Source: Siansivirga zeaxanthinifaciens CC-SAMT-1
GTDB taxonomy: Bacteria; Bacteroidota; Bacteroidia; Flavobacteriales; Flavobacteriaceae
Direction: 5' to 3'
DNA: 64,000 nt
NCBI RefSeq assembly: GCF_000941055.1
Contig: NZ_CP007202.1
Location: forward strand, 1,670,001-1,734,000
Made by a program: the position numbers and the translations under genes. This document shows positions 7,134 to 64,000 of this stretch, piece by piece; position 1 is the first letter of the stretch, and the number at the start of each line of letters is the position of its first letter. The notes beneath the pieces were generated by a model. The model did no database searches, was not told the origin of the DNA, and saw nothing but the letters and a program-made list of their open reading frames with translations.

Positions 7134-7207
7134 GGCCTCGTGGCGCAACTGAATAGCGCACTTGATTACGGCTCAAGAGGTTACAGGTTTGAATCCTGTC
7201 GAGGTCA
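7134..7207 (+). tRNA. tRNA-Arg (anticodon ACG)
   Basis: A complete cloverleaf: acceptor stem 7134-7140 pairs with 7200-7206 (one G-U), D-arm with GCGC stems, anticodon stem CTTGA/TCAAG around the loop TTACGGC (anticodon ACG at 7168-7170, reading CGU and, after deamination, CGC/CGA), T-arm ACAGG/CCTGT with loop TTTGAAT. CCA is not encoded. It is the integration site of the element to its right; its 3' half is shared with the recombinase coding sequence on the other strand. Confidence 0.95.
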
Positions 7208-8720
7208 CTAGACAGGACAAGTTCAAATTTTCACGAACTTGTCCTTTTCTTTGCTCTAGGAAGTCCTTGGAAATCTGAAAGATATGATTGATTACTGTGT
7301 TGAGTTTTAGGGTTCGACACTCGTTTTTTTCAAAAATCAACTTTTCAGAAAAAATCGAACCCAATATCATTTGTTTTGTTTCCCAACTCCCTGAATTATA
7401 GAAGGTTTTAAGGTTTTTAAGTACGTTTAGACACTTTTTAATATTACTCATAAAGTTTGTGCCTGCACTCTTTAATTCTTCTAATTCAAATCTTAAATCA
7501 GCAATTTTCTGACCATACCTTGCTTTTCCCTTTTCAAATGTGGATGCATCTATTTTTCCTTCAAACAAATTGTCTTCAGCTCTTTCAATTGTTTCTTGCA
7601 GGGTTTCTATTTCGGCTTCAATCTTAGAGATCTTTCTTGCTCTGCTAGCTTTGTCGTCTCCATATTGCTCTTTTATTACATCAAGATACAAGTCTGCTAC
7701 ACCTTGATCAATAGTTAAATTGGAAATTAAGTTGTCGAATAATTCATGTGCTTCGTTCACTTTAAATCTTTCACGACACCCTTTTCTGCAATGGTAATAG
7801 TAATATTTACCTCCAAGTCTACCGGTTGAGGCACTCCCTGTTAATGGCTTTCCACATCTTGAACATTCGATATGTCCTCTCAATGGTAAGTTTTCATCTT
7901 TAATAGACCATTTCTTAGTAATACGTTTTCTGCCGGTTAGTATATCCTGAACTTTATTGAAAAGCTTTTCAGAAACAATTGCCTCATGCAAGCCTTCAAC
8001 AACCATTTCATCTTCTGTTTTATAAGCAGGAACCTTTACCTTACCTATGTAAACGGGATTTCTGACGACCATGTGAAATCTTGATCTTGATATTTTCAAG
8101 CCTTTCTTTAACATGATTCTTCTCACTTCATCCACAGGTTTTTTAGTTTGTGCAATTATTTCAAATGCTTCTCGAATTAATTCTGCTTTATCCGAAGGAG
8201 TTAAACTTGCCTTGCCATTCTCAGTTCTTTGGTTCTTGTAACCAATTGGAGCAGTGGAAGTCCAACACCCCTCCTTGTTTGCTCTCCTTGAACCTTCGGT
8301 TACTCTTATTGATATTTTATCGTTTTCAACTTCTGGTACAGCTAAATAAATAGCTAACATTATTTTATTATCAGGCTGATCAAAGTCTAAAGGTTGTTCT
8401 ATTGAGTTTACTTTGATCCCTAATCGTCTTAGAGAGTCTATTACTTGATAAGCTTCTCCAGCATTCCTTGAAAACCTATCCCATTTTGTAAAAAGTATTT
8501 GATCGACATTTTTTCGATTTGCCTTACAGTAACTCATTAGCTTTGTCCACTCAGGTCTATCGAATGTTTTAGCTGAATAGTCGTCCTGAAAATGTTTGAT
8601 AATATTGAGATTTTTTAGATTACAATACCTCTCTAGCACTTCCTTTTGATAGGGAAGACTAAATCCTCTATCCGCTTGGTCGTCCGTTGATACCCTTGTG
8701 TAAATTATTGCGTTTGTCAT
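7173..8720 (-). CDS. Large serine recombinase (integrase)
   Basis: A 515-aa site-specific recombinase. The resolvase catalytic domain (residues 3-145) has the nucleophile Ser11 in YTRVSTDD and the arginines of WDRFSRN (82 and 85); the DNA-binding recombinase domain follows (about 155-265), then a zinc ribbon with Cys 286, 289, 311 and 315, and a coiled coil (about 365-425) typical of phage serine integrases. It probably integrates and excises this element. The last codons (TSTGFKPVTS, stop at 7173-7175) are read from the T-arm, variable loop and anticodon stem of tRNA-Arg. Serine integrases rarely use tRNA genes, so the arrangement is notable. Confidence 0.93.
   Translation of the reverse strand: MTNAIIYTRVSTDDQADRGFSLPYQKEVLERYCNLKNLNIIKHFQDDYSAKTFDRPEWTKLMSYCKANRKNVDQILFTKWDRFSRNAGEAYQVIDSLRRLGIKVNSIEQPLDFDQPDNKIMLAIYLAVPEVENDKISIRVTEGSRRANKEGCWTSTAPIGYKNQRTENGKASLTPSDKAELIREAFEIIAQTKKPVDEVRRIMLKKGLKISRSRFHMVVRNPVYIGKVKVPAYKTEDEMVVEGLHEAIVSEKLFNKVQDILTGRKRITKKWSIKDENLPLRGHIECSRCGKPLTGSASTGRLGGKYYYYHCRKGCRERFKVNEAHELFDNLISNLTIDQGVADLYLDVIKEQYGDDKASRARKISKIEAEIETLQETIERAEDNLFEGKIDASTFEKGKARYGQKIADLRFELEELKSAGTNFMSNIKKCLNVLKNLKTFYNSGSWETKQMILGSIFSEKLIFEKNECRTLKLNTVINHIFQISKDFLEQRKGQVRENLNLSCLVTSTGFKPVTS
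7214..7251 (+). terminator. Intrinsic terminator after tRNA-Arg
   Basis: A perfect 11-bp stem (7214-7224 with 7235-7245, 10-nt loop) followed by a T-rich stretch. It lies inside the 3' coding end of the recombinase on the opposite strand, so the same DNA serves as tRNA terminator, recombinase C-terminal codons and element end. Confidence 0.75.
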
Positions 8721-29378: not shown

Positions 29379-29379
29379 T

Positions 29380-30621: not shown

Positions 30622-30622
30622 A

Positions 30623-31678
30623 ATGAAAAGAGAAGTAAAAACCTTATTATCTAAATCTACTGATTCTATTCTTGTTGCAATAGAACATTTTAACAGACCT
30701 TTTGATGTCGGACGTCAAGAGACTGTATTAATTATGTTAGACAGAGGTTTTGAACTCTTCCTAAAGGCTTCAATTTTACACAAAGGCGGAGCGATTAGAA
30801 ATAAAGACGAGAAAAACACCTTGGGTTTTGATCGCTGTTTAAGAAAATGTGTAAGCGAGACTGAATTAAAATGCTTTAGTGAACAGGAGGCTTTACAAAT
30901 TCAAATGATTAACTCGCTTCGTGATGCAGCACAGCATTTTTACATGGAAATCTCGGAACAACAGTTTTACATACATACGCAAGCCGGAATAACCTTATAT
31001 GCAAGAAAATTGAATGAAATATTCAAAACAAAGCTTAGTGATTATTTACCTGAAAGAGTTTTGCCGGTTTCAACTCTACCTCCCGATGATTTTGGTGGAT
31101 TATTTACACATGAGTTTAAAGAAATCGTAGAGCTATTAAAACCAAAATCAAGAAAAAAAAGCAACGCAATTGCGAAGCTAAGAGCGTTTGCAATCGTAGA
31201 ATCTTCTTTAGAAGGAGAAACAACTCAGCCTTCTGAAGTAGAGTTGAAAAATATAGCGAAGAGAATTCAAAAGAAAGAAGATTGGAAATCCATTTTCCCA
31301 AATATTAAAACTTTAAGCTTAAACCCATCTGGTAATGGATTTGAAATATCTTTAAAACTTACGAAAGGCGAAGGAGAAGCCATCCATTTGGTTGACGAGG
31401 GAAATCCAAATGCAAAGACAATTGCAATTAGAAAAGTTAATGAATTAGCATTTTACAGTTTAGGATTAAAAAGTCTTGCAGAAAAACTATCGTTAACTCA
31501 GCCAAAACTACTTGCAGTAATAGAACATTTGAAAATTCAAGAGAATCCTGATTTTTTTAAACTTATACAGGTTCGTTCGCAAAAGCATAAATCATACAGT
31601 CCAAAGGCATTGGATTATTTAAAGAAAAAACTCCCTGAGCTAGACATTAAGGAAATCTGGAATAATAGAAAGAAGTAA
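30623..31678 (+). CDS. DUF3644 protein in the R-M operon
   Basis: A 351-aa protein from the ATG at 30623; a TTG nine bases earlier would overlap hsdS. The N-terminal half (DRGFELFLKASILHKGG, then INSLRDAAQHFYMEISEQQFY) matches DUF3644, a family repeatedly linked to defence and restriction loci in Bacteroidota. The C-terminus ends in a small wHTH-like segment. Molecular role unknown; it may be an effector or regulator of the operon. Confidence 0.7.
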   Translation: MKREVKTLLSKSTDSILVAIEHFNRPFDVGRQETVLIMLDRGFELFLKASILHKGGAIRNKDEKNTLGFDRCLRKCVSETELKCFSEQEALQIQMINSLRDAAQHFYMEISEQQFYIHTQAGITLYARKLNEIFKTKLSDYLPERVLPVSTLPPDDFGGLFTHEFKEIVELLKPKSRKKSNAIAKLRAFAIVESSLEGETTQPSEVELKNIAKRIQKKEDWKSIFPNIKTLSLNPSGNGFEISLKLTKGEGEAIHLVDEGNPNAKTIAIRKVNELAFYSLGLKSLAEKLSLTQPKLLAVIEHLKIQENPDFFKLIQVRSQKHKSYSPKALDYLKKKLPELDIKEIWNNRKK

Positions 31679-31681
31679 AAC

Positions 31682-31915
31682 ATGGCAAAGAAAAATAGTA
31701 CAAGACAAGTAGTTCCCAACCAAGATGGAGGTTGGAGTTCTAAAAAAGGTGGAGCAGATAGAGCTTCCAGAAATTTTGAAACTAAAAAGCAGGCTGAACA
31801 ATGGTCTAGAGACCTTAGCCGTAAAGAAGGTTCTGAATTGGTAATCCACAAAAAAGATGGAACCATCCAAAGAAAAGACAGTCACGGAAACGATCCATAT
31901 TCACCAAAAGGTTAA
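31682..31915 (+). CDS. DUF2188 small protein
   Basis: A 77-aa basic protein with the DUF2188 pattern: QVVPNQDGGW..KKGGADRASRNFETKKQAEQWSR and a C-terminal VIHKKDGTIQRKDSHGNDP. The family is widespread as small single-domain proteins; function unknown. It lies 3 bp after DUF3644 and 5 bp before the AlbA_2 gene. Confidence 0.85.
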   Translation: MAKKNSTRQVVPNQDGGWSSKKGGADRASRNFETKKQAEQWSRDLSRKEGSELVIHKKDGTIQRKDSHGNDPYSPKG

Positions 31916-31920
31916 TAGTT

Positions 31921-33306
31921 ATGAGCAAACAACTCACACCCGAAGACATCAAAAGCATTGTGCAATCCGGAGAAGGTTACAATGCCGAGTTTAAAATACG
32001 TGTGCCTAATAAGGTAAAAGAGATTACTGAGGAACTTTGTGCTTTTGCCAACTCTGCCGGAGGTGTGTTGTTAATTGGTGTGAGTGATGACAATGTAATT
32101 CATAGTGTTTCAATAGACAACGGTAAGCGGTCTGCTATTCAAAATTCTATTAATGAGATTAATCCCCATTTGCCTACCGATTTTTATGCTGTTGAAATAG
32201 ATGGAAAAACGGTTTGGGTAATTGAAGTAAACACGGGTATTCAAAAACCTTACGCCCTGTCAGGTGCTATTTATGTAAGGCAAGGACCAAACACGCAAAA
32301 ACTCACCACAGTAGAACAAATGCGTGATTTTTTCCAGCAGTCGGATCGTATTTATTTTGATGAAGCTCCCTGTGCTGATTTTGATCTTGCTAAGGATATT
32401 GACCAAAATTGGTTTGAAGAATTTAGGCTGCAAAGCGGTTTGTCGAAAGCCGTTAGTCAAGAGCAAATCATAAATAACTTAAAATTAGTATTGCCTAATG
32501 GTAGCGTAAAAAACGGTGGAGTTTTGTTTTTTGGAAATGCACCAGAGCAATTTATTGATACGGCTGTAATTCGTTGTATAGCCTTTGATGGGACAAACAA
32601 AACCAACATTATTGACGATAAGGTTTACGGTGGAGCCTTAATGAAGCAATACGAACAAGCCATGCAATGGCTAAAAGGCAAACTTTCTGTTCGTTATGAA
32701 ATTGAAGGCAGTGGACCAAGAAAAGAAATTTGGGAAATCCCCGAAACTGCTTTTAAAGAAGCCATCATCAATGCCTTATCGCATCGAGATTATTACGATA
32801 AAGGAGCAAGAATAACCATAGAGTTATTTAAAGACCGAGTTGAAATCAGCAATCCCGGAGGTTTAACCAGTGCCATTTCTTTAGCTGAATTTGGAACAAA
32901 GAGCCATAGCCGAAATCCACTCATATTTGGTTTGTTTGTACGTATTCAAATGGTAGAGCAAGTAGGTTCGGGTATTGGAAGAATTAGAGATTTAATGAAA
33001 ACAGCCAAGCTCCCTGAACCTCAATTTAAAACAGACGGTATGTTTACGGTGGTGTTCCAAAGAACTATGGAAGACACTGTGGAGAAAACTGTGGAAGAAG
33101 TTAATTTAAGCTCTACCGCAAAAAAAATACTGGATTTAATAAAACAGCATCCTAGTGTTACAACTAAGGAATTAGCTGAGGCTATTGGTATTACAGACAA
33201 AGGGGTTGAGTACAATTTATCAAAACTTCAAAAGGATGATATTATTTACCGAGAAGGCTCAAGAAAATCAGGTGTTTGGAAATTGAAAAATCAAACTAGG
33301 GAATAA
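31921..33306 (+). CDS. AlbA_2/Schlafen-like ATP-binding protein with wHTH
   Basis: A 461-aa protein: Schlafen AlbA_2 domain (about 15-130; YNAEFKI, then FANSAGGVLLIGVSDDN), a GHKL-type ATP-binding region (EAIINALSHRDYYDKGARI at about 280-300, GSGIGRIRDLM later) and a C-terminal winged helix (about 395-455). Such proteins are commonly encoded inside type I R-M operons and are thought to regulate or act as additional effectors. Its 3' end runs into a tandem repeat that supplies three in-frame stop codons. Confidence 0.85.
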   Translation: MSKQLTPEDIKSIVQSGEGYNAEFKIRVPNKVKEITEELCAFANSAGGVLLIGVSDDNVIHSVSIDNGKRSAIQNSINEINPHLPTDFYAVEIDGKTVWVIEVNTGIQKPYALSGAIYVRQGPNTQKLTTVEQMRDFFQQSDRIYFDEAPCADFDLAKDIDQNWFEEFRLQSGLSKAVSQEQIINNLKLVLPNGSVKNGGVLFFGNAPEQFIDTAVIRCIAFDGTNKTNIIDDKVYGGALMKQYEQAMQWLKGKLSVRYEIEGSGPRKEIWEIPETAFKEAIINALSHRDYYDKGARITIELFKDRVEISNPGGLTSAISLAEFGTKSHSRNPLIFGLFVRIQMVEQVGSGIGRIRDLMKTAKLPEPQFKTDGMFTVVFQRTMEDTVEKTVEEVNLSSTAKKILDLIKQHPSVTTKELAEAIGITDKGVEYNLSKLQKDDIIYREGSRKSGVWKLKNQTRE

Positions 33307-33339
33307 ACTAGGGAATAAACTAGGGAATAAACTAGGAAT
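33293..33339 (+). repeat. 12-bp tandem repeat across the AlbA_2 stop codon
   Basis: Unit AAACTAGGGAAT, three full copies (33293-33328) plus an 11-bp variant. Because 12 bp is four codons, each copy places TAA in the reading frame (stops at 33304, 33316, 33328). The remaining gap to hsdR (to 33467) has no convincing gene. Confidence 0.8.
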
Positions 33340-33467
33340 AAAAAATATAGTAATGACAAGTGATGTAGTACAAAGTTCGGGGAATATTACGGGAAAAAGT
33401 TCGGGAATAAATTTCCAGGAATTAGGGATAAAGCTTACTCATCATTCATAATTCAAAACTCATAATT

Positions 33468-36400
33468 ATGGAAATAACACCATCATTTATAGAAGACCAT
33501 ATATCGCAAATTCCGGCACTTAAACTGCTGATGAATTTGGGGTGGAAATATTTAACCCCTGAACAAGCGTTAGAAGGTCGTACCCATAGAACTTCTAATG
33601 TATTACTGGAGGGAGTGTTAAAAGAGCAGCTTCAAAAAATAAATAAGATTGAATACAGGCAAAAGGAATTCCCCTTTTCAGAAACTAATATCAACAATGC
33701 TATTCTGGCACTAAGAGACCTTCCAATTCAGGACGGTTTTATGGCTGCCAATAAATTCTATTATGAGCTGATTACTTTGGGTAAAAGCTTTGAGCAAACC
33801 GTATTGGGTGATAAAAAGAGCTTTTCATTTAAGTATATAGACTGGGAAAATCCGGAGAATAACGTCTATCATGTAACGGAAGAATACAGTGTGTTACGCC
33901 ACGAGCGAAATGACCATTATAGACCGGATATTATTCTTTTCGTGAATGGTATTCCTATGGTGGTGATAGAATGCAAAAGCCCTAAAATTAAGGATCCGGT
34001 AGATAAAGCCATCGAACAACATCTTCGCAATCAGCAGGAAGATGGAATACGTTCTCTCTATTACTATTCTAATTTAACCTTAGCACTTGCAACGAATGAG
34101 GCAAGGTATGGCACAACCGCAACACGAAAAGAATTTTGGGGTGTTTGGAAGGAAGTCTTTAAAAAGAAGGAAAGTCTTGCTGAATGGGAAGATCATATCT
34201 ATGAAATAAAACATAAAAGCCTAGAGGATAACGAACGAACAGCCCTGTTCAAAGAACGCTTCAAATATGTGTGGAGTTATTTTGAAAAACTGGAAGCAAA
34301 CGAACAAACAATTACCGAACAGGATAAACTACTTTTTAGCTTTTGTCAGCCAACTAGATTACTCGACATCGTATTAAATTTCACACTATATGATAGTGGG
34401 GATAAAAAAGTGGCTCGTTACCAACAATACTTTGCAGTTCGCAACACCTTAAAAAAGATAGTTAAAAAAGATAGTAAAGGGAAACATGAAGGAGGTGTAA
34501 TATGGCATACTCAGGGAAGTGGTAAGTCATTAACTATGGCAATGCTCGCTCAATTAGTAGCCTCGCATCCTGAAATAAAGAACCCCAAAATTCTATTGGT
34601 TACCGACCGTATTGATTTGGATGATCAGATAACGGAAACTTTTAAAAAGTGTAACGTGCCGGTGGAGAATGCTCAAACAGGTAAGCATTTAGTAGAACTA
34701 ATTAAAAGTCCGGGAGATGCCGTGATTACAACTTTAATCCACAAGTTTGAAGCAGCAGTTAACCAATCCAAAGAAGGATTTGAATCATCCGAAATATATG
34801 TGCTTATAGACGAAGGACACCGCTCACAATACGGTTCGTTCAACGTGAAAATGCAAAAGGTATTTCCAAACGCCTGTTTTATTGCATTTACCGGAACGCC
34901 ATTGATGAAAAAGGAAAAGAGTACAGCCAGTAAATTTGGTGGAATTATAGATGTTTATTCTATTACCGATGCGGTTGAAGACGGAGCCGTTGTGCCTTTG
35001 CTGTATGAAGGTCGCCATAACCTGATTGAAGTAAACGAAAAGCCCTTAGATGCTTTCTTTGATAAAGTTTCAGAACCGCTCACCGACTATGGAAAAGCGA
35101 ACCTAAAAAGAAAATACAGCTCCAAAAACGTACTGAATAAAGCCGACCAAGTAATATTTGCCCGTGCTTGGGACATTGCGGAACACTATACCCAAAACGT
35201 GCAGGGAATAACTTTTGGAAGTTTAAAGGCAAAAGGGCAATTAGTAGCCCCAAATAAAACCACAGCAATCAAATATAGAGAGTATTTAAAAGAAACAAAA
35301 AAAGTGAGCTGTGAGGTGCTTATTTCCGCACCGGATGTTCGTGAGAATTACGATGATGCGTTTGAAGAAAGTGAAGATTTGGTGTTGAAGTTTTGGAAAA
35401 GCATGATGGACAAATACAACAAGGCAGAAGCCTATGAGAAGTTCATTATAAATTCTTTCAAGAAACAGGAACATCCTGAAATTATCATTGTAGTTGATAA
35501 GCTTTTAACAGGTTTTGATGCTCCAAACAACTATGTGCTTTATTTAACACGCTCGCTTAGAGAACACACCTTGTTACAGGCGATAGCAAGGGTAAACCGA
35601 TTGGCTCCAGGTAAGGAACATGGAGTAATTATTGATTACTACGGAAACCTTGAAAACCTTGATACTGCTCTTGAAACTTATTCAGGTGAAAACGATTATG
35701 ACGAATCTGATCTTCAAGGTACAGTTACCAATATCAATGAGGAAATCGCCAAACTACCTCAAGCTCATTCTGAGGTATGGGATATTTTCAAAGGGATTAC
35801 CAATAAATATGACGAGCCTGCTTACGAAGAATTGTTATCAGATGAAGCAACCCGACATTCTTTTTATGAAAAAGTATCTGTCTTTACTCGCTTGCTAAAA
35901 TTGGCTTTGTCTAGCTATGAATTCTCTACAAAAACACCGGAAAGACAAATTATAAAATACAAGAAAGATGCAAAGTTCTTCCTTGCATTGAGAGTATCTG
36001 TTAAACGAAGATATTCGGATGATATTGACTACAAAGAGTATGAACCACAGGTTCAAAAACTCATTGATAAGCATATTACCACGGATGGTGATATACTTCG
36101 TTTGACTGAGTTGGTAAACATTTTTGATAAGGAAGAACGTGAGGCAGAAGTTGAGAAATTAACGAGTAAAGCTGCCAAAGCCGACCATATTGCAAGTAGA
36201 ACTATTCGAGCCATCAATGTAAAAATGAATGAGGATCCAGTATTCTTTAAAAAACTATCCAAGTTGATTAAAGAAACAATAGAGGATTATCACCAACATA
36301 GAATTGATGAAGCTGAATACCTGAAAAAGGCAAAATCGTTAGAGGATCAGTTCCTAAATGGGCAGCGTGATAATGTTCCGGAGGAATTAAGAGGTAACGA

Positions 36401-36701
36401 TACTGGTATTGCTTTCTACAATTTAATTGGAGAAATATTCGATGCAGAACTTGGAAACCAAAGCAATGTTGGGGCTGAAATGGCAAAAGGAATAGTAGAT
36501 GTAATCAAGTCTATTGTTTACGAAAACAACAAGGTGATTGTCGATTGGCAAAACAAAACAGACATAGAAGGGCAAATAAAAATAGCCATTGATGATTATG
36601 TATTTGACTTGAAATCGAAATATGATATTGAGTTGTCTTTTGATAAAATTGACCAATTCGTTGAGGAAGGTCTGAGTGTTGCTAAAATAAAATTCGTGTA
36701 A
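33468..36701 (+). CDS. hsdR: Type I restriction endonuclease subunit R
   Basis: A 1077-aa motor-nuclease. The N-terminal PD-(D/E)xK nuclease is at about 150-168 (RPDIILFVNG...VVIECKS), followed by the SF2 translocase: Walker A TQGSGKSLTMA near 348, motif II LIDEGHRSQ, motif III FTGTPLM, motif VI QAIARVNRLAPGK, and a helical C-terminus that binds the M2S core. Full length with all motifs, so restriction should be active. It ends in a 1-bp overlap with the YgjP-like gene. Confidence 0.96.
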   Translation: MEITPSFIEDHISQIPALKLLMNLGWKYLTPEQALEGRTHRTSNVLLEGVLKEQLQKINKIEYRQKEFPFSETNINNAILALRDLPIQDGFMAANKFYYELITLGKSFEQTVLGDKKSFSFKYIDWENPENNVYHVTEEYSVLRHERNDHYRPDIILFVNGIPMVVIECKSPKIKDPVDKAIEQHLRNQQEDGIRSLYYYSNLTLALATNEARYGTTATRKEFWGVWKEVFKKKESLAEWEDHIYEIKHKSLEDNERTALFKERFKYVWSYFEKLEANEQTITEQDKLLFSFCQPTRLLDIVLNFTLYDSGDKKVARYQQYFAVRNTLKKIVKKDSKGKHEGGVIWHTQGSGKSLTMAMLAQLVASHPEIKNPKILLVTDRIDLDDQITETFKKCNVPVENAQTGKHLVELIKSPGDAVITTLIHKFEAAVNQSKEGFESSEIYVLIDEGHRSQYGSFNVKMQKVFPNACFIAFTGTPLMKKEKSTASKFGGIIDVYSITDAVEDGAVVPLLYEGRHNLIEVNEKPLDAFFDKVSEPLTDYGKANLKRKYSSKNVLNKADQVIFARAWDIAEHYTQNVQGITFGSLKAKGQLVAPNKTTAIKYREYLKETKKVSCEVLISAPDVRENYDDAFEESEDLVLKFWKSMMDKYNKAEAYEKFIINSFKKQEHPEIIIVVDKLLTGFDAPNNYVLYLTRSLREHTLLQAIARVNRLAPGKEHGVIIDYYGNLENLDTALETYSGENDYDESDLQGTVTNINEEIAKLPQAHSEVWDIFKGITNKYDEPAYEELLSDEATRHSFYEKVSVFTRLLKLALSSYEFSTKTPERQIIKYKKDAKFFLALRVSVKRRYSDDIDYKEYEPQVQKLIDKHITTDGDILRLTELVNIFDKEEREAEVEKLTSKAAKADHIASRTIRAINVKMNEDPVFFKKLSKLIKETIEDYHQHRIDEAEYLKKAKSLEDQFLNGQRDNVPEELRGNDTGIAFYNLIGEIFDAELGNQSNVGAEMAKGIVDVIKSIVYENNKVIVDWQNKTDIEGQIKIAIDDYVFDLKSKYDIELSFDKIDQFVEEGLSVAKIKFV

Positions 36702-55611: not shown

Positions 55612-55788
55612 ATGATTGAAATACTAAAACTATCTATTCAGGAAAATAACGGTCAAAAAATGATTGGTGTCCGCTACCAAAAGGATGGTCAAGCCCAACC
55701 ATTCGTAATTTTCCATTATTCCGACCTCGAATCTCCAACTGATAATGTTGAATTGAAGGAGGCGGTAAGGAATTATTTATCTAAGTAG
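55612..55788 (+). CDS. Small hypothetical protein at the end of the virion operon
   Basis: A 58-aa ORF (begins MIEILKLSIQENNGQ), soluble, alpha/beta. It is the last rightward gene and its end overlaps the convergent HTH gene by 16 bp. Plausible but unproven. Confidence 0.5.
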   Translation: MIEILKLSIQENNGQKMIGVRYQKDGQAQPFVIFHYSDLESPTDNVELKEAVRNYLSK

Positions 55789-56057
55789 ATGTTTTCTTCT
55801 AGTCCAAAGAAGAAATCAGGATTAAGATGATAATCATGAATAAAGTCATGAAGCAATCCAATAGGAACGTCCTGATAACCTTGTGATATTAGCGTAATCA
55901 AGGATTTGCTATATCCATATTTATCCGAAATCTCCTTTTTACTTGAAATAACTTCATTTTCTATCAGGTATTCTACTGCTTTGATGAACTTATGACTTAT
56001 CAAGCTTTTCTCTTTGAAATCGCCTGATTCACTTGCCCTATCTCGGTACGAACTCAT
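55773..56057 (-). CDS. Small XRE-type HTH regulator
   Basis: A 94-aa protein with the same HTH type as the repressor at 9603-10208 (KFIKAVEYLIENEVISSKKE, then SKSLITLISQGYQDVPIGL, ending HLNPDFFFGLEE), lacking a coiled-coil tail. It ends the leftward Hsp70/kinase operon and is convergent with the virion operon, so it may regulate either. Confidence 0.7.
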   Translation of the reverse strand: MSSYRDRASESGDFKEKSLISHKFIKAVEYLIENEVISSKKEISDKYGYSKSLITLISQGYQDVPIGLLHDFIHDYHLNPDFFFGLEENIYLDK

Positions 56058-56084
56058 TCGTTTATTTTAAGTAAAACTTAATTT

Positions 56085-56621
56085 TTAAAGTATGATTTGA
56101 AATAATGTATATCCCAAACCTCCTGCAACGGTAATAATTGCAGCTACCATTCCTAGGCAGCCACTATTTTGTTTTTTATTCTTCTTTTCAAGATCTTTCA
56201 AAAAGCCTTTCATTTGACCTTCCATTCCGGAACTCATTGTTCCTGGCTTTCCTTTTAATTCGCCTCGTTCAAATTTTAGAATTGTTTCTTTAAACTCATC
56301 CCAATCACGAACTCTTGGAGCGGTAGCTAAATAATTTCCTTCACCCAACATATTAGCATAACCTGCACTATCCTTGTCTATTTGAGGATCATATTCAGGT
56401 TCCCACCATACAGCAAAATGTTGTTTTGCATTTGTGTAAATAAATGGGAAAACCAACTTTGTTGAATCACCGCAAGATGGACATTTGGCAACATTGATTT
56501 TATCTGACATTACCAGTTCTCTGTTCTCAGGGTATTCTCCCCAAATTGAACGATATAATGTGTAGTCGAACTGATGTTTACATCTAGGACAGGTTATTTT
56601 AGCTTCAATTCTTTTGCTCAT
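56085..56621 (-). CDS. CpXC zinc-domain protein with C-terminal membrane helix
   Basis: A 178-aa protein with a CpXC domain: CPRCKHQFDY (Cys 11, 14) and KCPSCGDSTKL form a zinc site, with an acidic middle and a C-terminal membrane helix (GCLGMVAAIITVAGGLGYTL). CpXC proteins are of unknown function. It overlaps the upstream DUF6804 gene by 4 bp. Confidence 0.75.
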   Translation of the reverse strand: MSKRIEAKITCPRCKHQFDYTLYRSIWGEYPENRELVMSDKINVAKCPSCGDSTKLVFPFIYTNAKQHFAVWWEPEYDPQIDKDSAGYANMLGEGNYLATAPRVRDWDEFKETILKFERGELKGKPGTMSSGMEGQMKGFLKDLEKKNKKQNSGCLGMVAAIITVAGGLGYTLFQIIL

Positions 56622-56926
56622 GAGTTAGTCTTTGGTTTTGCTTTAAAAAGGCTAATTATTAAATAAATAGAAGCTCCAACATCTATAACATTCCATAGCT
56701 CTCTTCCTAATGTGATTTTTGCAAATGGCTGAAACAATAATGCTAACGCACCAAAAACTATTAAATCAACTTTGTTTTCTTGTTGATAGGCAGAAAAAGC
56801 TAAATAACCTAGTCCAATTGAGCCAATAAATCTTACCAATTGATAAAAACCATAAGGGAAGTCGGCTAAACACAGGAGGAATAAAACCGCAAGAGCAATT
56901 TTTACATATTTATTCTTGCTCGCCAT
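56618..56926 (-). CDS. DUF6804-like membrane protein
   Basis: A 102-aa protein with three or four membrane helices (FLLCLADFPYGFYQLVRF, GLGYLAFSAYQ, LIVFGALALLFQPF, IYLIISLF), matching DUF6804-type small membrane proteins. Function unknown. Overlaps the TerB-like gene by 17 bp. Confidence 0.7.
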   Translation of the reverse strand: MASKNKYVKIALAVLFLLCLADFPYGFYQLVRFIGSIGLGYLAFSAYQQENKVDLIVFGALALLFQPFAKITLGRELWNVIDVGASIYLIISLFKAKPKTNS

Positions 56927-57455
56927 CTTCTTCTTTGAGATTCTTTAAAACATTGTCATCAATAGAGCTTATCAATTCAAATTGCTTCGATGTATGTGTG
57001 TCAAAAAAGTCGTCTTGTAATCTCGCTAAATAAGAATCGCTAATAATATCTTGTTCTAAATATTCTTCGAAGTCTGGATGAATTTCAAGAATTGGATCGT
57101 TTTCAATTTTGAGCTTACTTCTAATAACCTTGAAAAATTTGATTTCACTATACTCAACTTTTTCATCTGCTTTTATTGTATCAATCGCAGCTTCAATAAG
57201 TTTAAGTTCTTCCTCTTCGGTAAGCTCATTTGCTGTAAGCTCATTAAAAAACCCTTTTAAAAACTTTTGACCATCATGATTGATTGACAGCAATAATTCA
57301 TCTAACTCCTTCTCAATATCAATATCCCCAAACACTTTCCGGTCATTGTGCATACTTTTAATTAACACAACTTCTCGTTTATCAATATCACCATCACAAG
57401 CCATACAAGAGAAGGCTGTTTTTAGCAATAATTTATTAAAGCTCATTTGTTCCAT
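56910..57455 (-). CDS. TerB-like protein
   Basis: A 181-aa acidic protein with two TerB-type helical repeats: AFSCMACDGDIDKREVVLI (about 14-33) and IEAAIDTIKADEKVEYSEIK (about 85-105). TerB domains bind metals and occur in tellurite-resistance, stress and defence loci, often next to ATPases and chaperones. Adjacent, 1 bp, to the kinase-AAA gene, so it may be a subunit or sensor for it. Confidence 0.75.
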   Translation of the reverse strand: MEQMSFNKLLLKTAFSCMACDGDIDKREVVLIKSMHNDRKVFGDIDIEKELDELLLSINHDGQKFLKGFFNELTANELTEEEELKLIEAAIDTIKADEKVEYSEIKFFKVIRSKLKIENDPILEIHPDFEEYLEQDIISDSYLARLQDDFFDTHTSKQFELISSIDDNVLKNLKEEDGEQE

Positions 57456-57456
57456 A

Positions 57457-59238
57457 TTAATTTCTTTTAAAACCTATTCTAGGTCGTTCGCTACTGGTTG
57501 AATTTTGACCTTCCATTTTCGCCTTTATAGCCTCATAGCTGTGAAGTTCATTAAGAGAAATAGACGGTCTATTATCTTTGATTGTGGATGAAAGAATCTC
57601 CCAAGTTATTCTCGATTTTGTTTTAAGAGCTCTTCGAGATGCTTCATCACATAAAAATTTAATATCACTCGAAACATAATTTTCTGTTATCGTTGCTAAC
57701 TCAGAATAATTTAGTCCAACCTCAGTTGGTCGTTTCTTTAGATAAAGCTCAAACATTAGTTTTCTAGCTTCGTGATCAGGAGGGGGGAGATAGATGTGCT
57801 TATCTAATCTTCCTGCTCTTAGTATTGCCGGATCTATAGAGTTAGGTCGGTTAGTAGCACCAATTATAAATACACCATCCTCTCCAACATTATTCATTTG
57901 AGCAAGAAATTCATTGACAGCACTTGTGTTCATGTGATTGATCCCTGAACTATCCCTATTTGGTACCATTGCATCTAGCTCGTCAATAAAAATAACGCTA
58001 GGAGCATTTTCCCTTGCTTCATCGAAAAGCTTTTTGATATTCTCTTGGGATGCGTTAACCCACTTACTTTGAATGTCTGATGGCTTTATTTGGTAAAAAT
58101 TAAAACCTATTTCCTCTGCCATCTTTTCTGCAAAAAATGTTTTACCACAACCTGGAGGACCATAGAGCAGCATCCCATTCGGAATAGTCAAGCCGTACTC
58201 AGCATATTTTTCCTTCTCATTAAGAGCATCAATAACATCAAGTTTGATTAAATCTTTTAAGTCCTGCATTCCTGCAATTGACGAAAATCCTTTGCCTTGC
58301 TTAACTTTTTTAGGTTTAACAGTTAACTCGGATTCGGTAGTTTCAGAAAGCTGAATTTCTAGTTCGCCATTTACCGCTTTGATAAATTCTTTTACGTTTT
58401 TGAATCTATTTTCTGCTTTTGGTTGAAGAGCCTTAGAGATAACCTTTATAATAGTTTCATCAACTATTACATCAGAATCAGGGAAACTTAATTTCTTTTG
58501 TCTTTCTTCAATGATGGCATCTTCTATTTTTATTCTGTCAGATTTAAACTTGGAAAGTTCCACGAACCAAGGTGGCATTCCAAATAGTAAGTGATAGTAA
58601 AGAGCTCCAACAGAAAAAATGTCGCTTTGAACTGAGAAAACTTTATTGAAAGCTTCATTTGATTGATAAAAAGGATTTAGCCCTTCCTTTAAAAAATCAT
58701 TTGTTGCTTGATCTATCCACCTAGCATACCCGAAATCAATTAGTTTTGGAACAGGAACTTTACCTGAAAGATCGAGCATTACGTTAAGATTCGTAATATC
58801 ATTATGAATCAAAGGTCTATCTATACTATGTAGATGATTTAATCCATTTAAAACACCTAGAATAATATCCTTCGCCTCGTATTGATTCAGAGTATCCTCT
58901 CGTTTCATTTTATCAGCGAGAGTTTCCCCACTAATAAAGTCGAGAATCACATAGCCATATTTTTGATTTTCAATGATGAGTTCTCCCGAATCATGATACT
59001 TCACCACATTAGGATGTTTTATTGATTTTAAAACATCAATTTCTAAAGGTGTACCGGAATTCGTGAACTGTGTTCTATCTAGCTGAGAGTATATGAATAG
59101 CTTTAATAGTTTTGTTATTCCGTCATTTCCTTTGACACGATAAGTTTCAGCATAGCTCCCTTTTTTTAGAAAGAAAGCTATTTGGTACTTATCATCAATA
59201 AGTTCACCTTTTTTTAATATGTGTGAATTAGAACCCAT
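57457..59238 (-). CDS. Protein kinase fused to AAA+ ATPase
   Basis: A 593-aa two-part protein. The N-terminal Hanks-type kinase (about 15-300) has a glycine loop FLKKGSYAETY, catalytic loop HNDITNLN near 144 (Asp and Asn kept; the usual HRD Arg and the Lys two residues after the Asp are replaced) and LIDFGYAR near 168. The C-terminal AAA+ domain (about 330-560) has Walker A GPPGCGKT near 360, Walker B VIFIDELDAM, and arginine fingers in the RAGRLDKH region, of the FtsH/CDC48/katanin class. Stop abuts the TerB gene and start abuts hsp70. Kinase control of an unfoldase, or sensing by a chaperone complex, is a reasonable inference. Confidence 0.88.
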   Translation of the reverse strand: MGSNSHILKKGELIDDKYQIAFFLKKGSYAETYRVKGNDGITKLLKLFIYSQLDRTQFTNSGTPLEIDVLKSIKHPNVVKYHDSGELIIENQKYGYVILDFISGETLADKMKREDTLNQYEAKDIILGVLNGLNHLHSIDRPLIHNDITNLNVMLDLSGKVPVPKLIDFGYARWIDQATNDFLKEGLNPFYQSNEAFNKVFSVQSDIFSVGALYYHLLFGMPPWFVELSKFKSDRIKIEDAIIEERQKKLSFPDSDVIVDETIIKVISKALQPKAENRFKNVKEFIKAVNGELEIQLSETTESELTVKPKKVKQGKGFSSIAGMQDLKDLIKLDVIDALNEKEKYAEYGLTIPNGMLLYGPPGCGKTFFAEKMAEEIGFNFYQIKPSDIQSKWVNASQENIKKLFDEARENAPSVIFIDELDAMVPNRDSSGINHMNTSAVNEFLAQMNNVGEDGVFIIGATNRPNSIDPAILRAGRLDKHIYLPPPDHEARKLMFELYLKKRPTEVGLNYSELATITENYVSSDIKFLCDEASRRALKTKSRITWEILSSTIKDNRPSISLNELHSYEAIKAKMEGQNSTSSERPRIGFKRN

Positions 59239-61770
59239 TTATCCCCTTAAAATTCCTTTAGCACTCTCGTTTTGAGTTGAATCCAAATCATCAGTTAAAC
59301 CTGAGTTTTGTAATAAATCTGCACAAATTGGTCTTAAACTATCGAAGCTCGGATTCTCAACAATAATCTGCTTTCCTCTGTTAAGAAGACTTCTTGCTGC
59401 GTTTCTATCTTTCCATTGAATTGAATCAAAATCTCTATCGAAGCTGTATATCAGTCCCATAGCGTGCTCAAGCTTCTCTAATTCAAATGCCAAATGATTA
59501 ATTATTTCAATAAGCTGAGGAGTGTTTTTACTATCCTTATCTCTAATAGCTTGCTCAACATCAGGTTTTATTTTATTAACTATCTGAGTTGTTTGCTCAT
59601 TTCCTTTTTCTCTATTGATCTCTTCGAGATTGTGGAAAGCCTCTTTTAATTCCTTTTCTAACTCAGGCCACTCTCTGTCTCCAAGTAATTTATCAACCAC
59701 TTTTAGTGATTTTCTTAAATTGGAAAGAGCTTGCTGTTTAGTATCGGTATCATCTTTGGAACTTTCAAAAAGTTTTTTTCCTTCCTGAATTTCCTTTTCT
59801 GCTTTATCTAGTTCTTCCGAACTGATCCCTTTTCTTTTAAGCTCGTTTACGCTTGATAAACCCTTTTTAAATTCATTATCCAACCAAGCAGTTTCAACAT
59901 GATCTGTTACAGTTTCACATTCAAAATCGTATTCAAAATCAATTGCTGTAAAATATGCTTTACCTGTTATCTTTTGGGACTTGTCAATGTTAACTGTTAT
60001 ATCTACATCAGTATTTTCAGGTAAAAGAGCAGGGAAATCGTTTCCAGTAATGTAAATAGTATTTACGTGGTGATTATGAATAGCCCTCGAACCCTCAGCT
60101 CCGTGCTCTCCTTGGAAAATAGAAATTTCCAAATAGTCACTTTCCATTCCTGGACGAATTTGTCTTGGTGTCTTTAAGTTATTTATTGCCCCGATGGCAG
60201 GTAGAGATTTATTCTTTTCTAATCCCGGAACTGTTCTGAAAACGACTTTTCCGGAGTTAATATCCTGAATCTCTATACCCATATTGTAAGGTAAAGTAGC
60301 TGAACCTACTACTGATCCTTGTATTACATTAAATGAGTTTGGTTCGCATTCAAGAAGATTACCTTTGTCGTCATAAAGGGTTACATCAAACACATTGGTT
60401 TTACCTTCGGTGAGTTGTACATCTATAACTTCACCAAGGGTGTTAATTTCAACTTTACCACTTGCCCATGCGTTATCACCTCTTTTTATTTCAGCAAAAA
60501 CTTTTTCAGGAATAGTTCCTTCAGTCTTATCTTCTAAAATCTTAACAGTTACAAACTCTTCTGTTTCTACTGTAGAAGCTTCATGACCAATTTCTAATTG
60601 AATTTTTGTCTTATCTCTAGTTTGATCTTTGATTTCTTCGGATAATTCTACGGTCGAAGCATATAAAGCAGCTCCGGTTGAAACTACTGTCATAGGATCA
60701 ACACTTGTGTCTGGCTTGCAAATTTGCTTCTCCAACATTTCCCTTACGATAGGGGATAAAGTTGGACCACCTACAAGAATTAGAGAGTCTAAAGAAGAAC
60801 CTTGTAAATTATTTCTACTTAAAAGAGTTACTGCACAATCAATTGCTTTTTGAAAAACAGGAGCCAACACTTCTTTTAACTGATCCTGAGTTACTGTTAA
60901 GTCTATCTCAATTTCTTCACCATTATCATCTTCACCACAATCACCCGGATCAACATAAATGTTATGAGAAGAATTGAATGAAAGGTTGTTTTTAATTTCC
61001 TCAGCAAAGAATTTTAAAGCACCCCTGTATTCAGCTTTTTTAGCATCATCACTTAGAATACCATCAATCTCATAATTTTTCTGAATATGAGGAATGATTA
61101 ATTGATCAACGACAGCATAATCAAGATTTTTACCTCCTAAATAATTATCCCCTTCGGTATCAATTACCTTCATGATACCTTCTTCAACTTTCAATAAAGC
61201 TGCATCAAAAGTTCCCCCTCCGTAATCAAAAACAAGCCAAAAACCATCTTTCTTTTTACTATCTAATCCATAAGCCATGGATGCTGCAACTGGTTCTTGA
61301 AGAACTTCTACGTGGTCAAACCCTGCAAGCTTCGCTGCTTTTCTTGTAGCATCAATTTGGTTATTTTTAAATGCAGCAGGTACTGTAATAACAGCAGCAT
61401 TAATATTTTCATCACTTACATACTCCTTCAACCTTTTAAGAACTTCAGCTGATAATTCTTCGGATGTTAAATCTTTAGAAATGTTAGTACTGTGATAAGT
61501 TTTATCAGTACCCATAGTTCTTTTGAATTCTACAAAGGCATTTAAAGGAGCGTTTTTGGCAAGAGACTTTAAACTATCAGAACGATAGGATCTATATGCA
61601 GCATCACCAACCAAGACACTTCCTTTTTTATTATAAGCTACACAAGAAGGGCTAGTATCTTTTTGAGTATCCAAAGATTTGATGATCTTAACTTCTCCTT
61701 TGTCGATTCTTGAGATAGCTGAATTTGTTGTCCCTAAATCTATCCCGTAGTCAATTTTTGTCCTTGCCAT
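59239..61770 (-). CDS. Hsp70/DnaK-family protein with extended C-terminus
   Basis: An 843-aa Hsp70 relative, about 200 residues longer than DnaK. The ATPase domain is intact: DYGIDLGTTNSAIS (phosphate 1), LVFDYGGGTFDAALL (phosphate 2) and SLILVGGPTLSPIVREML (adenosine). The beta substrate domain (about 385-600) is divergent, and residues 620-843 are helical coiled coil. It is not the housekeeping DnaK. One base from the kinase-AAA gene and 12 bp from the upstream coiled-coil gene; no DnaJ or GrpE is encoded here. Confidence 0.9.
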   Translation of the reverse strand: MARTKIDYGIDLGTTNSAISRIDKGEVKIIKSLDTQKDTSPSCVAYNKKGSVLVGDAAYRSYRSDSLKSLAKNAPLNAFVEFKRTMGTDKTYHSTNISKDLTSEELSAEVLKRLKEYVSDENINAAVITVPAAFKNNQIDATRKAAKLAGFDHVEVLQEPVAASMAYGLDSKKKDGFWLVFDYGGGTFDAALLKVEEGIMKVIDTEGDNYLGGKNLDYAVVDQLIIPHIQKNYEIDGILSDDAKKAEYRGALKFFAEEIKNNLSFNSSHNIYVDPGDCGEDDNGEEIEIDLTVTQDQLKEVLAPVFQKAIDCAVTLLSRNNLQGSSLDSLILVGGPTLSPIVREMLEKQICKPDTSVDPMTVVSTGAALYASTVELSEEIKDQTRDKTKIQLEIGHEASTVETEEFVTVKILEDKTEGTIPEKVFAEIKRGDNAWASGKVEINTLGEVIDVQLTEGKTNVFDVTLYDDKGNLLECEPNSFNVIQGSVVGSATLPYNMGIEIQDINSGKVVFRTVPGLEKNKSLPAIGAINNLKTPRQIRPGMESDYLEISIFQGEHGAEGSRAIHNHHVNTIYITGNDFPALLPENTDVDITVNIDKSQKITGKAYFTAIDFEYDFECETVTDHVETAWLDNEFKKGLSSVNELKRKGISSEELDKAEKEIQEGKKLFESSKDDTDTKQQALSNLRKSLKVVDKLLGDREWPELEKELKEAFHNLEEINREKGNEQTTQIVNKIKPDVEQAIRDKDSKNTPQLIEIINHLAFELEKLEHAMGLIYSFDRDFDSIQWKDRNAARSLLNRGKQIIVENPSFDSLRPICADLLQNSGLTDDLDSTQNESAKGILRG

Positions 61771-61782
61771 ATATTGTGATTT

Positions 61783-62724
61783 TTAATTCTGTGAAACTTC
61801 AACTTGTGCTCTTTGAATAAGAATACCATTAAAGTTGACTTGTGGTTTAATAATTTTAGTAATGATTTTCTTGCCTTTTTCAAGGTTGTCATCTTCTAAG
61901 AAGTTGATAACGTCCAAGTTCATACGATCCTCATAATCCTTATTTAAAAGATTAACCATTTCGTAACCATTTGCTGCAAAATTTGCTTGAATCCTTTCAA
62001 TTCCTTTTTCTAAAGGCTTTAATCCCTTGGTACCTTCATCCATTCGTGAAATATTCTTTTGCATTCTGACAATCTCGTCCGCAACTTTTAAAGCTAAAGA
62101 GTGATCTTCCTTTTCAGGTGTAGAGCTTGATGGAGTTGAACTTGATTCTGCTTGTTGTATTTTCAATTGGGACTCTAAAACTTCAACAAGCTTACTATCC
62201 AATTTGATACTTTCTTCTTCAAGCGATTTCTTTGTGTTGTTTATTTGCGATTCAACATCGGTTTTACTCGAAGTAATTCTTTTCCCAAGAAGCCAAAAAA
62301 TAACACCGCCAATTAGTAAAGTAGCTAGCGTACCAATTATCCAGTACAATCTGTTTTTATCTACATCACTATTTAAAGCGGAAATTTTGCTATCAGCAAT
62401 ATCTCCGGTTTCCTGAATTTTCGTACCTAAGTCCTTAGAAATAGCAACAATATTATTTCCATTGGTGCTTACGATATTAGAAACACTATCAAGTTTTCCT
62501 TTTAAGGACTGGTTTTCCTGATTGAGTTTAGAAATAGCATTACCTTTTTCAATCAATGAATTCCTTTGAACTTGGTACTTATCACTTAACTTTTCGATTT
62601 CAATTGATTGTTCTTTTAATTGCTGTTTAAGAGATGTTACCTCTACGTTTATCAAGCTGTCACTTTGAGCCACGGCTACAAATGACGATAAACCTATAAT
62701 TGTTCCTAGTATTACTTTTTTCAT
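61783..62724 (-). CDS. Exported coiled-coil, single-pass membrane protein
   Basis: A 313-aa protein: signal peptide (MKKVILGTIIGLSSFVAVAQ), periplasmic coiled coil (about 25-115), membrane helix (YWIIGTLATLLIGGVIFWLL, about 130-150) and a cytoplasmic coiled-coil C-terminus (about 155-313). This transmembrane rod could link a periplasmic signal to the cytoplasmic Hsp70/kinase proteins. No family recognised. Start overlaps the stop of the CFI-box gene by 1 bp. Confidence 0.7.
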   Translation of the reverse strand: MKKVILGTIIGLSSFVAVAQSDSLINVEVTSLKQQLKEQSIEIEKLSDKYQVQRNSLIEKGNAISKLNQENQSLKGKLDSVSNIVSTNGNNIVAISKDLGTKIQETGDIADSKISALNSDVDKNRLYWIIGTLATLLIGGVIFWLLGKRITSSKTDVESQINNTKKSLEEESIKLDSKLVEVLESQLKIQQAESSSTPSSSTPEKEDHSLALKVADEIVRMQKNISRMDEGTKGLKPLEKGIERIQANFAANGYEMVNLLNKDYEDRMNLDVINFLEDDNLEKGKKIITKIIKPQVNFNGILIQRAQVEVSQN

Positions 62725-64000
62725 TATTTCTTTTTCTTAATAAGCTTTACAAATTGATCCAATGATCTACGGATAGCATTATTTATGCTCTGTTTATTTT
62801 CAAGTTTTTCAACAAGTTTAGGTGAGTACTTATAGTAAAACTTAATGAACTGTTTTCCTAGATAGAACTTATCTAGAAACTCATCTCTAAATTTCCGTAA
62901 TTCAAGAACCTGTGGATGGTCGTAGTCTCCATAAGCCATTGTTGCGATATAACAACCGCCACTTGAAGATGAACTACTGCTAGAAGAACTGTAACTAGAA
63001 CTTGAAGCAGACCTCATTTGCCTTCGCACAGTTTCTAATTGAGTATTCATGCCTTTAATAGTGGATTTGTTGTCATTGAACCTTCTTCTTGTTTCATAGT
63101 TCATATCTAACGCATCCAACATGTTTATTACTTCAACTGCATCAGAAACAACCCCAGGAAGGAGTAGAAGTTTCGAGCGGTTATATTCTAATCCACTTTG
63201 AGCTTCATTTACAACTTCTATCAACATACCTAGTGCATTTCCGACAACTGCACTGCTAATCCCTAAATAGAGTTCATCATCGGAGCCAAGAACACCCCTA
63301 ATTGACTGCAATTTGTATTTACATCCACTAACCAATGATTTAGCATTACTTATAGTGTCTGATTGGTTTTGGAAATTACTTAGCTTATTTGTAATGTATT
63401 CAAGGTCTTCTTTTATAGGAGCAGATTGAGCCCATTCTTCCATGCCTTCGATATTCTCTCTAATTCTATCCTTTGTTTGAGAGCCAATTGCTATCGAATC
63501 AGCATATTTAAGAAGCTTCAATCCTTCATTACTTGGATCTTTTGAATCCTTCCATGCCTGAAAATAATCAATACCACATTGCATAATTTCTTTAGCAAGG
63601 TTATCTGCAATCATTTTGAATTTCAGATCACTTGCTCCCAACATGGATTTTATAGAAGCTAAGTCTTCCTTACTATCAACAAATAACTTTAAACCAAAAT
63701 CATAAGCTTTGAATTTGTCTTGTTTTCTTCTGCTTTTGGCACTTTCTATTCGAGCTTCTAAGTTGTGAATAGGCTTTTCAGTAAACTTCTTAGAGATGTA
63801 CTTTTTCGTTTCTGAATTACATCCACTGAAAAGCTTAGCTGTACTGGCTAAAGTATATTTCCCATTAAGTTGCGATAAAAGTGTATCGACCAGTTTTTCT
63901 GCTTGTTTCTTGTTGTCAATAGAATAGGTTTGATCTGCTACGGAATGAACAAAATCGGCAAAACTATCTGAATCAAGTAGTTTAAACTTTAAAGAAATTC
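62724..64000 (-). CDS. CFI-box-CTERM protein, start outside the window
   Basis: The frame stays open from the stop at 62724-62726 to the window edge, so the ATG at 63644 is internal and at least 425 residues are present. The C-terminal 70 residues carry a CFI-box-type motif: GGCYIATMAYGDYDHPQVLE, LRKFRDEFL and YYKYSPKLVE, preceded by a Ser-rich linker of about 20 residues. The visible upstream part is helical and soluble. CFI-box domains are of unknown function and are often found in stress and defence-like operons. It is the most upstream visible gene of the Hsp70/kinase operon. Confidence 0.75.
   Translation of the reverse strand, partial: ISLKFKLLDSDSFADFVHSVADQTYSIDNKKQAEKLVDTLLSQLNGKYTLASTAKLFSGCNSETKKYISKKFTEKPIHNLEARIESAKSRRKQDKFKAYDFGLKLFVDSKEDLASIKSMLGASDLKFKMIADNLAKEIMQCGIDYFQAWKDSKDPSNEGLKLLKYADSIAIGSQTKDRIRENIEGMEEWAQSAPIKEDLEYITNKLSNFQNQSDTISNAKSLVSGCKYKLQSIRGVLGSDDELYLGISSAVVGNALGMLIEVVNEAQSGLEYNRSKLLLLPGVVSDAVEVINMLDALDMNYETRRRFNDNKSTIKGMNTQLETVRRQMRSASSSSYSSSSSSSSSSGGCYIATMAYGDYDHPQVLELRKFRDEFLDKFYLGKQFIKFYYKYSPKLVEKLENKQSINNAIRRSLDQFVKLIKKKK

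Follow-up and report, generated by a model that had tools for sequence, protein, structure and literature searches.

DnaK, with DnaJ and GrpE, works alongside ClpB in protein disaggregation, and the mitochondrial import motor consists of Hsp70, Mge1, Pam18 and the HPD-less Pam16. Chaperones are also host factors used by phages and, as recently recognized, parts of phage sensing, with bNACHT25 sensing phage via the host DnaJ and acting with an NLR-related effector (PMC12169576). The GTPase-centered GAP1-N2 systems, predicted to act in conflict, include HSP70, GrpE and a DnaJ fusion (Kaur et al. 2020, PMC7159879), while CoCoNuT type IV restriction systems have Hsp70 homologues, with partly degenerate ATPase motifs, and TerY-P kinases (PMC11090510). 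Here we describe an operon of Siansivirga zeaxanthinifaciens CC-SAMT-1 that encodes a CFI-box protein, a coiled-coil rod protein, an Hsp70, a protein kinase domain fused to an AAA+ ATPase (kinase-AAA) and a TerB-like protein, found in a window of 64,000 nt (NZ_CP007202.1, positions 1,670,001-1,734,000; all coordinates below are window positions). Together, the encoded proteins probably make up a dedicated Hsp70 cycle and an AAA+ unfoldase. Our leaning, held with middling confidence, is toward a mobile, self-contained, membrane-tethered Hsp70 machine with its own J-like and GrpE-like partners and an AAA+ motor, most likely serving in conflict with phages or mobile elements.

The operon resembles the GAP1-N2 systems in pairing an Hsp70 with a GrpE and a J-domain partner of its own, within a locus predicted to act in conflict (PMC7159879). 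Those systems, however, are centered on a GTPase, have FNIII-repeat proteins and are found mainly in actinobacteria and firmicutes (PMC7159879), whereas the operon, in Bacteroidota, has an AAA+ ATPase with a kinase fold, TerB, a transmembrane-anchored GrpE-like protein and a J-like protein lacking HPD; no GTPase was seen in the core operons, a comparison in which the GAP1-N2 model itself was not run. bNACHT25 is a precedent for J-protein chaperones in phage detection (PMC12169576), with the difference that the operon encodes its own chaperones instead of relying on the host DnaJ. CoCoNuT, a defense locus, resembles the operon in having an Hsp70 homologue, a Ser/Thr kinase and coiled-coil parts, but the operon has no McrB GTPase, McrC or HEPN, and the ATPase motifs of its Hsp70 are intact. 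With DnaK-ClpB and the import motor it shares an Hsp70 with an exchange factor and a J or J-like adaptor, an AAA+ partner (ClpB) and a membrane-tethered motor; unlike them, it has a single-ring, Cdc48/FtsH-like AAA+ ATPase fused to a kinase fold and a putative exchange factor that spans the membrane, and it is non-housekeeping. These two machines are, as our best guess by analogy, the closest working parallels to its mechanism.

None of the PADLOC models fits the set, the matches being generic ones to AAA and kinase models, with none relevant for the Hsp70, rod, CFI-box or TerB proteins. The partial matches, of the AAA+ domain to IetA (4.5e-35) and of the kinase to MAD6 (1e-33) and PD-T4-6 (3e-30), are likenesses to IetAS, MADS and PD-T4-6 at the domain level only; the operon has neither the IetS subtilase nor methylation genes, and its architecture is different. 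The labels CoCoNuT, BREX, IetAS and MADS were rejected. A TerY-P or Ter stress label was also rejected, as the triad of TerY vWA, PP2C and kinase was not found among the operon proteins, nor were TerC and TerD, and TerB alone is present. No named defense system matched the operon in a comparison that left out DefenseFinder's latest models, and a literature search lying outside most subscription papers found no description of this gene set, of the CFI box or of DUF6804. Given the precedents for Hsp70 in conflict loci in GAP1-N2 and CoCoNuT, neither of which has this set, we therefore class the operon with chaperone-based conflict systems.

The operon consists of eight minus-strand genes running from 55773 to ~64424, with intergenic gaps of 27, -4, -17, 1, 0, 12 and -1 bp, and the gene at its high-coordinate end crosses the window end:

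55773..56057, minus strand: small helix-turn-helix-like (HTH-like) protein, 94 amino acids, accessory last gene (from sequence; copy of 94.7% identity in locus L274)
56085..56621, minus strand: CpXC zinc-ribbon protein with one C-terminal hydrophobic segment, accessory (Pfam CpXC, E 1.9e-16; hydropathy)
56618..56926, minus strand: DUF6804 small membrane protein, a frequent, not universal member (PF20619, E 6e-34; hydropathy)
56910..57455, minus strand: TerB-like protein, 181 amino acids, core (Pfam TerB, E 0.05; alignment)
57457..59238, minus strand: protein kinase domain (~10-290) fused to a Cdc48/FtsH/PAN-like AAA+ ATPase (~317-570), core (profile matches)
59239..61770, minus strand: non-housekeeping Hsp70, 843 amino acids, nucleotide-binding motifs intact, core (Pfam HSP70, E 3e-65)
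61783..62724, minus strand: rod protein, a putative membrane-anchored GrpE-like exchange factor, core (hydropathy; hhalign)
62724..64000, continuing to ~64424, minus strand: J-domain-like protein (no HPD) with a helical-repeat-like body and a C-terminal CFI box, core (NCBIfam CFI_box_CTERM; hhalign)

A preliminary description of this DNA, made from the sequence alone, had proposed a minus-strand operon of this kind, and its reading of the locus stands in outline: all the genes that it named are present, closely spaced (gaps of 27 to -17 bp), and their domain identities hold. The operon is larger than was described, however, with eight genes, of which the HTH and CpXC genes are accessory and the CFI-box gene is incomplete in the window (full length, 566 amino acids, starting at ~64424; full gene, L003:725-2425). 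The TerB assignment, also made there, is below the Pfam cut-off in the window copy (E 0.05) and above it in the homologue at the same position in L014 (4e-6). The Pfam scan gave no family match for the HTH-like protein.

Evidence that these genes form a unit comes from their recurrence. Six of them keep their order in other Bacteroidota, usually as J-like/CFI, rod, Hsp70, kinase-AAA and TerB, to which DUF6804 is often added (following TerB in L010-L013, L025, L026 and L274-L276). A small lipoprotein or SH3-like gene may lie between Hsp70 and kinase-AAA. The core order recurs in more than 12 loci from several families, at protein identities of 24-95%, the exceptions being L028, which has no TerB, and L029, which is cut by the contig end and has the J-like gene last. 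Chance clustering, one of the two outcomes by which the preliminary description would have been overturned, is ruled out by these many conserved loci within the collections searched; the other, a match to a system already named, did not turn up there either. The operon had also been correctly taken as unnamed and as combining membrane components with a core of chaperone and ATPase; no PADLOC family model fits the set. Outside the window operon, the only full-operon locus found to have the HTH and CpXC genes is L274, a close copy of the element in the window. Selection on most genes of the operon is purifying (omega, 0.02-0.08; DUF6804, 0.35).

The operon is rare and patchy, being present in about 2% of sampled genomes and on unrelated elements. 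A kinase-AAA protein search found it in 6/299 genomes of the family, and a profile search in 7/395 genomes of the phylum, one of these (G669) having the AAA+ part only; in a search of genome contigs with the AAA+ profile, a few true matches at the top were followed by a flood of generic Cdc48/PAN proteins. A separate Hsp70-profile search gave 6 of 395 genomes of the class, comprising the window's own and five more; among these five, the set is complete in three, L277 breaks off at its contig end within the kinase gene and L278 has the rod and Hsp70 only. Each of these counts takes in the window's own genome. The operon is also carried by a Haliscomenobacter plasmid and by the genome-contig loci L032 and L033. 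Kinase-AAA genes alone, without the rest of the operon, occur in gut Bacteroidales (L034:9992-11803, L035:9992-11791 and L039:9986-11713), with a small YbjN-like gene adjoining in L034 and L035.

The distribution of catalytic residues points to which activity has been conserved. The Hsp70 motifs DLGTTNS, GGGT and VGGPT are retained in all main copies, as are the Walker A (GPPGCGKT), Walker B, sensor and arginine residues of the AAA+ domain (E 2e-41 in the window protein), and its aromatic pore-loop residue is retained in nearly all copies, with L035 and L113 as exceptions. The AAA+ domain thus fits the motif set of an unfoldase (Walker A/B, sensor 1, arginine fingers, aromatic pore loop), for which threading would be the predicted activity. 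In the kinase domain (E 6e-31), the window clade has K46, E66, D147, N152 and DFG, and the HRD/DFG catalytic residues have been altered or have disappeared in L025, L026, L027, L029, L031, L033, L112, L113 and L247, the domain being unrecognizable in L113 and L247, so that the Lys, HRD Asp and DFG of an active Ser/Thr kinase are not found family-wide. With the ATP sites of Hsp70 and AAA+ kept and kinase residues lost in at least nine relatives, it is the work of Hsp70 and AAA+ that is conserved. Of the chaperone/kinase/ATPase core first proposed for the locus, then, the Hsp70 and AAA+ parts remain, and the kinase falls outside the conserved catalytic core. By its motifs, the engine is Hsp70 plus AAA+, not the kinase, whose fold serves in at least some cases for regulation alone. 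Two Hsp70 genes are present in single operons at L274:9795-14783 and L032:5192-9977; the second L032 Hsp70, the one degenerate copy, may be a regulatory partner, given its degenerate ATP motifs.

The rod protein has a signal-peptide-like N-terminus, a coiled coil, one transmembrane helix (129-147) and a conserved C-terminal domain, as judged by hydropathy and alignment. Because a PDB profile search with the whole rod was swamped by coiled-coil bias, it was replaced by a domain-only profile comparison with shuffle controls. The C-terminal domain (~205-313) matches Bacteroidota GrpE with an hhalign probability of 95% (P 5.6e-8, 107 columns) and a score of 53, against at most 22 for column shuffles, 0/150 of which were as good; single-sequence hmmscan of the rod against Pfam gave no GrpE match among the families listed. 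At L112, L113 and L247, the gene at the rod position encodes only 128-130 amino acids, has no transmembrane segment and corresponds to the C-terminal domain alone. The rod protein is likely a membrane-anchored, GrpE-like nucleotide exchange factor whose GrpE-like domain would be cytoplasmic. The earlier proposal of a coiled-coil membrane sensor was thus correct about the membrane and incomplete about the protein, which appears to be more than a sensor.

The CFI-box protein matches NCBIfam CFI_box_CTERM at its C-terminus (E 9e-22), in agreement with its original naming, which did not extend to the J-like start of the protein. The conserved part is the N-terminus (NPYRILG, later LFWF), and this region matches DnaJ J-domains (hhalign P 2e-4, probability 46%, 60 columns), with 0/150 shuffles as good. 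HPD is absent from every aligned copy, and single-sequence Pfam scans gave no DnaJ match; the J-domain-like fold lacking HPD is suggestive only. Profile comparison supports the GrpE-like domain and, more weakly, the J-like one, and relative to a complete DnaK/DnaJ/GrpE module the operon has an intact Hsp70, a GrpE-type factor by remote homology only and no HPD J-domain. A Foldseek search with a model of the CFI-box protein returned weak helical-repeat (TPR-like) matches, none at E 0.001 or better. The C-terminus is variable, with the CFI box in 5 of 15 Bacteroidota copies, a hydrophobic helix near the C-terminus in 7 and neither in 3. Many relatives have a transmembrane helix in place of the box, and we infer that the CFI box may be a membrane-association module. 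In L113 and L247, transmembrane segments are in the J-like protein and not in the GrpE-like protein, and the membrane tether has therefore changed partner. Two J-like proteins, one with Sel1 repeats, precede the GrpE-like gene without a transmembrane segment in L112 (1526-7030), and L014 has two J-like genes in tandem.

Enrichment in defense islands had been suggested as a check on the locus, and the flanks do point in that direction. At a threshold of E 1e-20 or better, at least 11/85 flank proteins from 12 operon loci matched PADLOC models, compared with 1/85 in controls (Fisher p 0.002), and 7/12 loci had a defense gene in the flank compared with 1/12 control regions (p 0.014); the controls were 12 arbitrary chromosome regions of carrier genomes, not other mobile cargo. 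The genes include BrxL and PglZ (L031), Gabija (L033), HsdM and a ThsB-like protein (L026), a type I/II methyltransferase (L013), a type IIG restriction-modification system (L025) and PADLOC candidates (L028 and L032), and BREX adjoins the operon in the Haliscomenobacter plasmid pHALHY02. With a small sample and the chromosome at large as control, this result supports "defense-rich mobile DNA" and not a defense function itself.

How such a machine might work can be sketched, and from the co-encoding of these proteins onward we infer every step, including a physical complex, the direction of signaling, the targets and a role in defense. The periplasmic coiled-coil rod or lipoprotein parts would report an envelope event to the Hsp70 cycle, the GrpE-like domain would set nucleotide exchange on Hsp70, and the J-like protein would tether clients or Hsp70 at the inner membrane. 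Hsp70 would hand clients to, or act with, a hexameric AAA+ threading ring that the fused kinase-fold domain and its TerB partner may regulate or gate. Foreign proteins could in this way be caught, unfolded or disassembled, or a stored response released, at the membrane.

Several observations weigh against this membrane-tethered conflict machine. AlphaFold2 (AF2) models of the rod C-terminus, from four sequences, have helices and two strands in the expected order, but with a predicted local distance difference test (pLDDT) score below 50 in the C-terminal part. The model of the J-like region also has pLDDT below 50; these runs used shallow alignments of 2-4 sequences, too weak to confirm either fold. 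With a J-like match that is weak and has no HPD, canonical stimulation of Hsp70 is not to be expected. The operon core has no nuclease, nucleotide cyclase, protease or recognizable toxin, and the enrichment of defense genes nearby would suit any mobile cargo too. Possible, if the less probable account, is an envelope proteostasis module, a horizontally spread stress system that folds or extracts inner-membrane or exported proteins and has no anti-phage role. All core parts (Hsp70, GrpE-like, J-like, AAA+) are proteostasis parts, and the GrpE-like or J-like protein would provide membrane tethering. However, presence in ~2% of genomes, on mobile elements and viral contigs, with defense genes in 7/12 flanks, would be unusual for a housekeeping stress module.

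Horizontal transfer of the operon is clear from the kinase-AAA tree, where L025, which comes from the family of the window genome, clusters (100/100) with the copy on the Haliscomenobacter plasmid rather than with the other copies of that family. In L274, which belongs to a different family, both the operon and the end of an adjoining phage-like element match those of the window, the DNA match extending to window coordinate 64571. The left end of this element is marked by the following features:

7173..8720, minus strand: serine recombinase at the left end of the element, reading into the 3' end of tRNA-Arg (from sequence)
7134-7208: tRNA-Arg
7195..7208, plus strand: left attachment-like repeat CCTGTCGAGGTCAC, the 3' end of tRNA-Arg, 14 bases

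The repeat CCTGTCGAGGTCAC has one further occurrence in 82 kb, a copy that differs from it at two positions and lies at ~64682, outside the window and just past the end of the L274 match, where chance would supply 0.5 such matches in 82 kb and 0.002 in the 300-bp boundary zone. Because the L274 match ends near 64571 and the tRNA-Arg repeat has its partner at 64682, we take the operon to be cargo at the right end of a putative 57.5-kb phage-like element inserted at tRNA-Arg, 7195-64695. Past the CFI-box gene, after the element end, are chromosomal CBS-domain, rpe and rpoD-like genes. The element encodes a serine recombinase, two endolysins, a tail-fiber-like protein, a packaging-ATPase-like protein, methylases and helicases of very large size and numerous short proteins with a single transmembrane segment. 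Within it, the genes at 27852-36701 look like a type I restriction-modification system (HsdM, HsdS, HsdR and additional genes), an assignment made by reading and not by scan. When the window is compared with L274, the genes for Hsp70, the GrpE-like protein and the J-like protein show ~3x the synonymous divergence seen in kinase-AAA, TerB and the element's phage genes, which suggests that recombination took place within the operon.

Viral contigs also carry part of the core. L113 and L247 have a four-gene version in one row (J-like, GrpE-like, Hsp70, AAA+), with phage baseplate and endonuclease VII genes adjoining it in L247; neither the window kinase-AAA nor the L113 Hsp70 had a match among GenBank phages, and scanning viral sequences with the GrpE-like profile gave no hits. 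Together with the position of the window operon at the right end of a phage-like element, the L247 arrangement is what would be expected of cargo serving its carrying element, through superinfection exclusion, help with virion or tail assembly, or neutralization of host defense, and in jumbo phages, which have Ter genes and DnaJ, these have been proposed to act in superinfection exclusion and in recruiting the host's Hsp70 (PMC7824862). Other copies, however, are on a plasmid or in chromosomal defense-rich loci without phage structural genes, and we regard this explanation as unlikely. Kinase-driven signaling, with phosphorylation as the output and Hsp70 and AAA+ as its regulators, would suit the intact residues of the window clade but is very improbable when at least nine relatives have altered or lost them and keep the rest of the core.

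A bolder form of the conflict-machine reading, which we put forward as speculative and doubtful, is a new class of conflict system, with a private Hsp70 cycle acting as both sensor and effector and with neither nuclease nor toxin. Through the transmembrane GrpE-like factor, adsorption of a phage or injection of its genome would set off nucleotide exchange on Hsp70, Hsp70 and AAA+ would capture and unfold phage proteins at the inner membrane, and the four-gene form would be used by phages against rivals.

The conflict reading predicts that the essential parts are both ATPases and the GrpE-like domain, and that kinase catalysis need not be essential. The operon also offers a test case for Hsp70 nucleotide exchange controlled from across a membrane. 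If the reading is true, these Bacteroidota carry a defense or conflict machine that acts on protein folding and not on nucleic acids.

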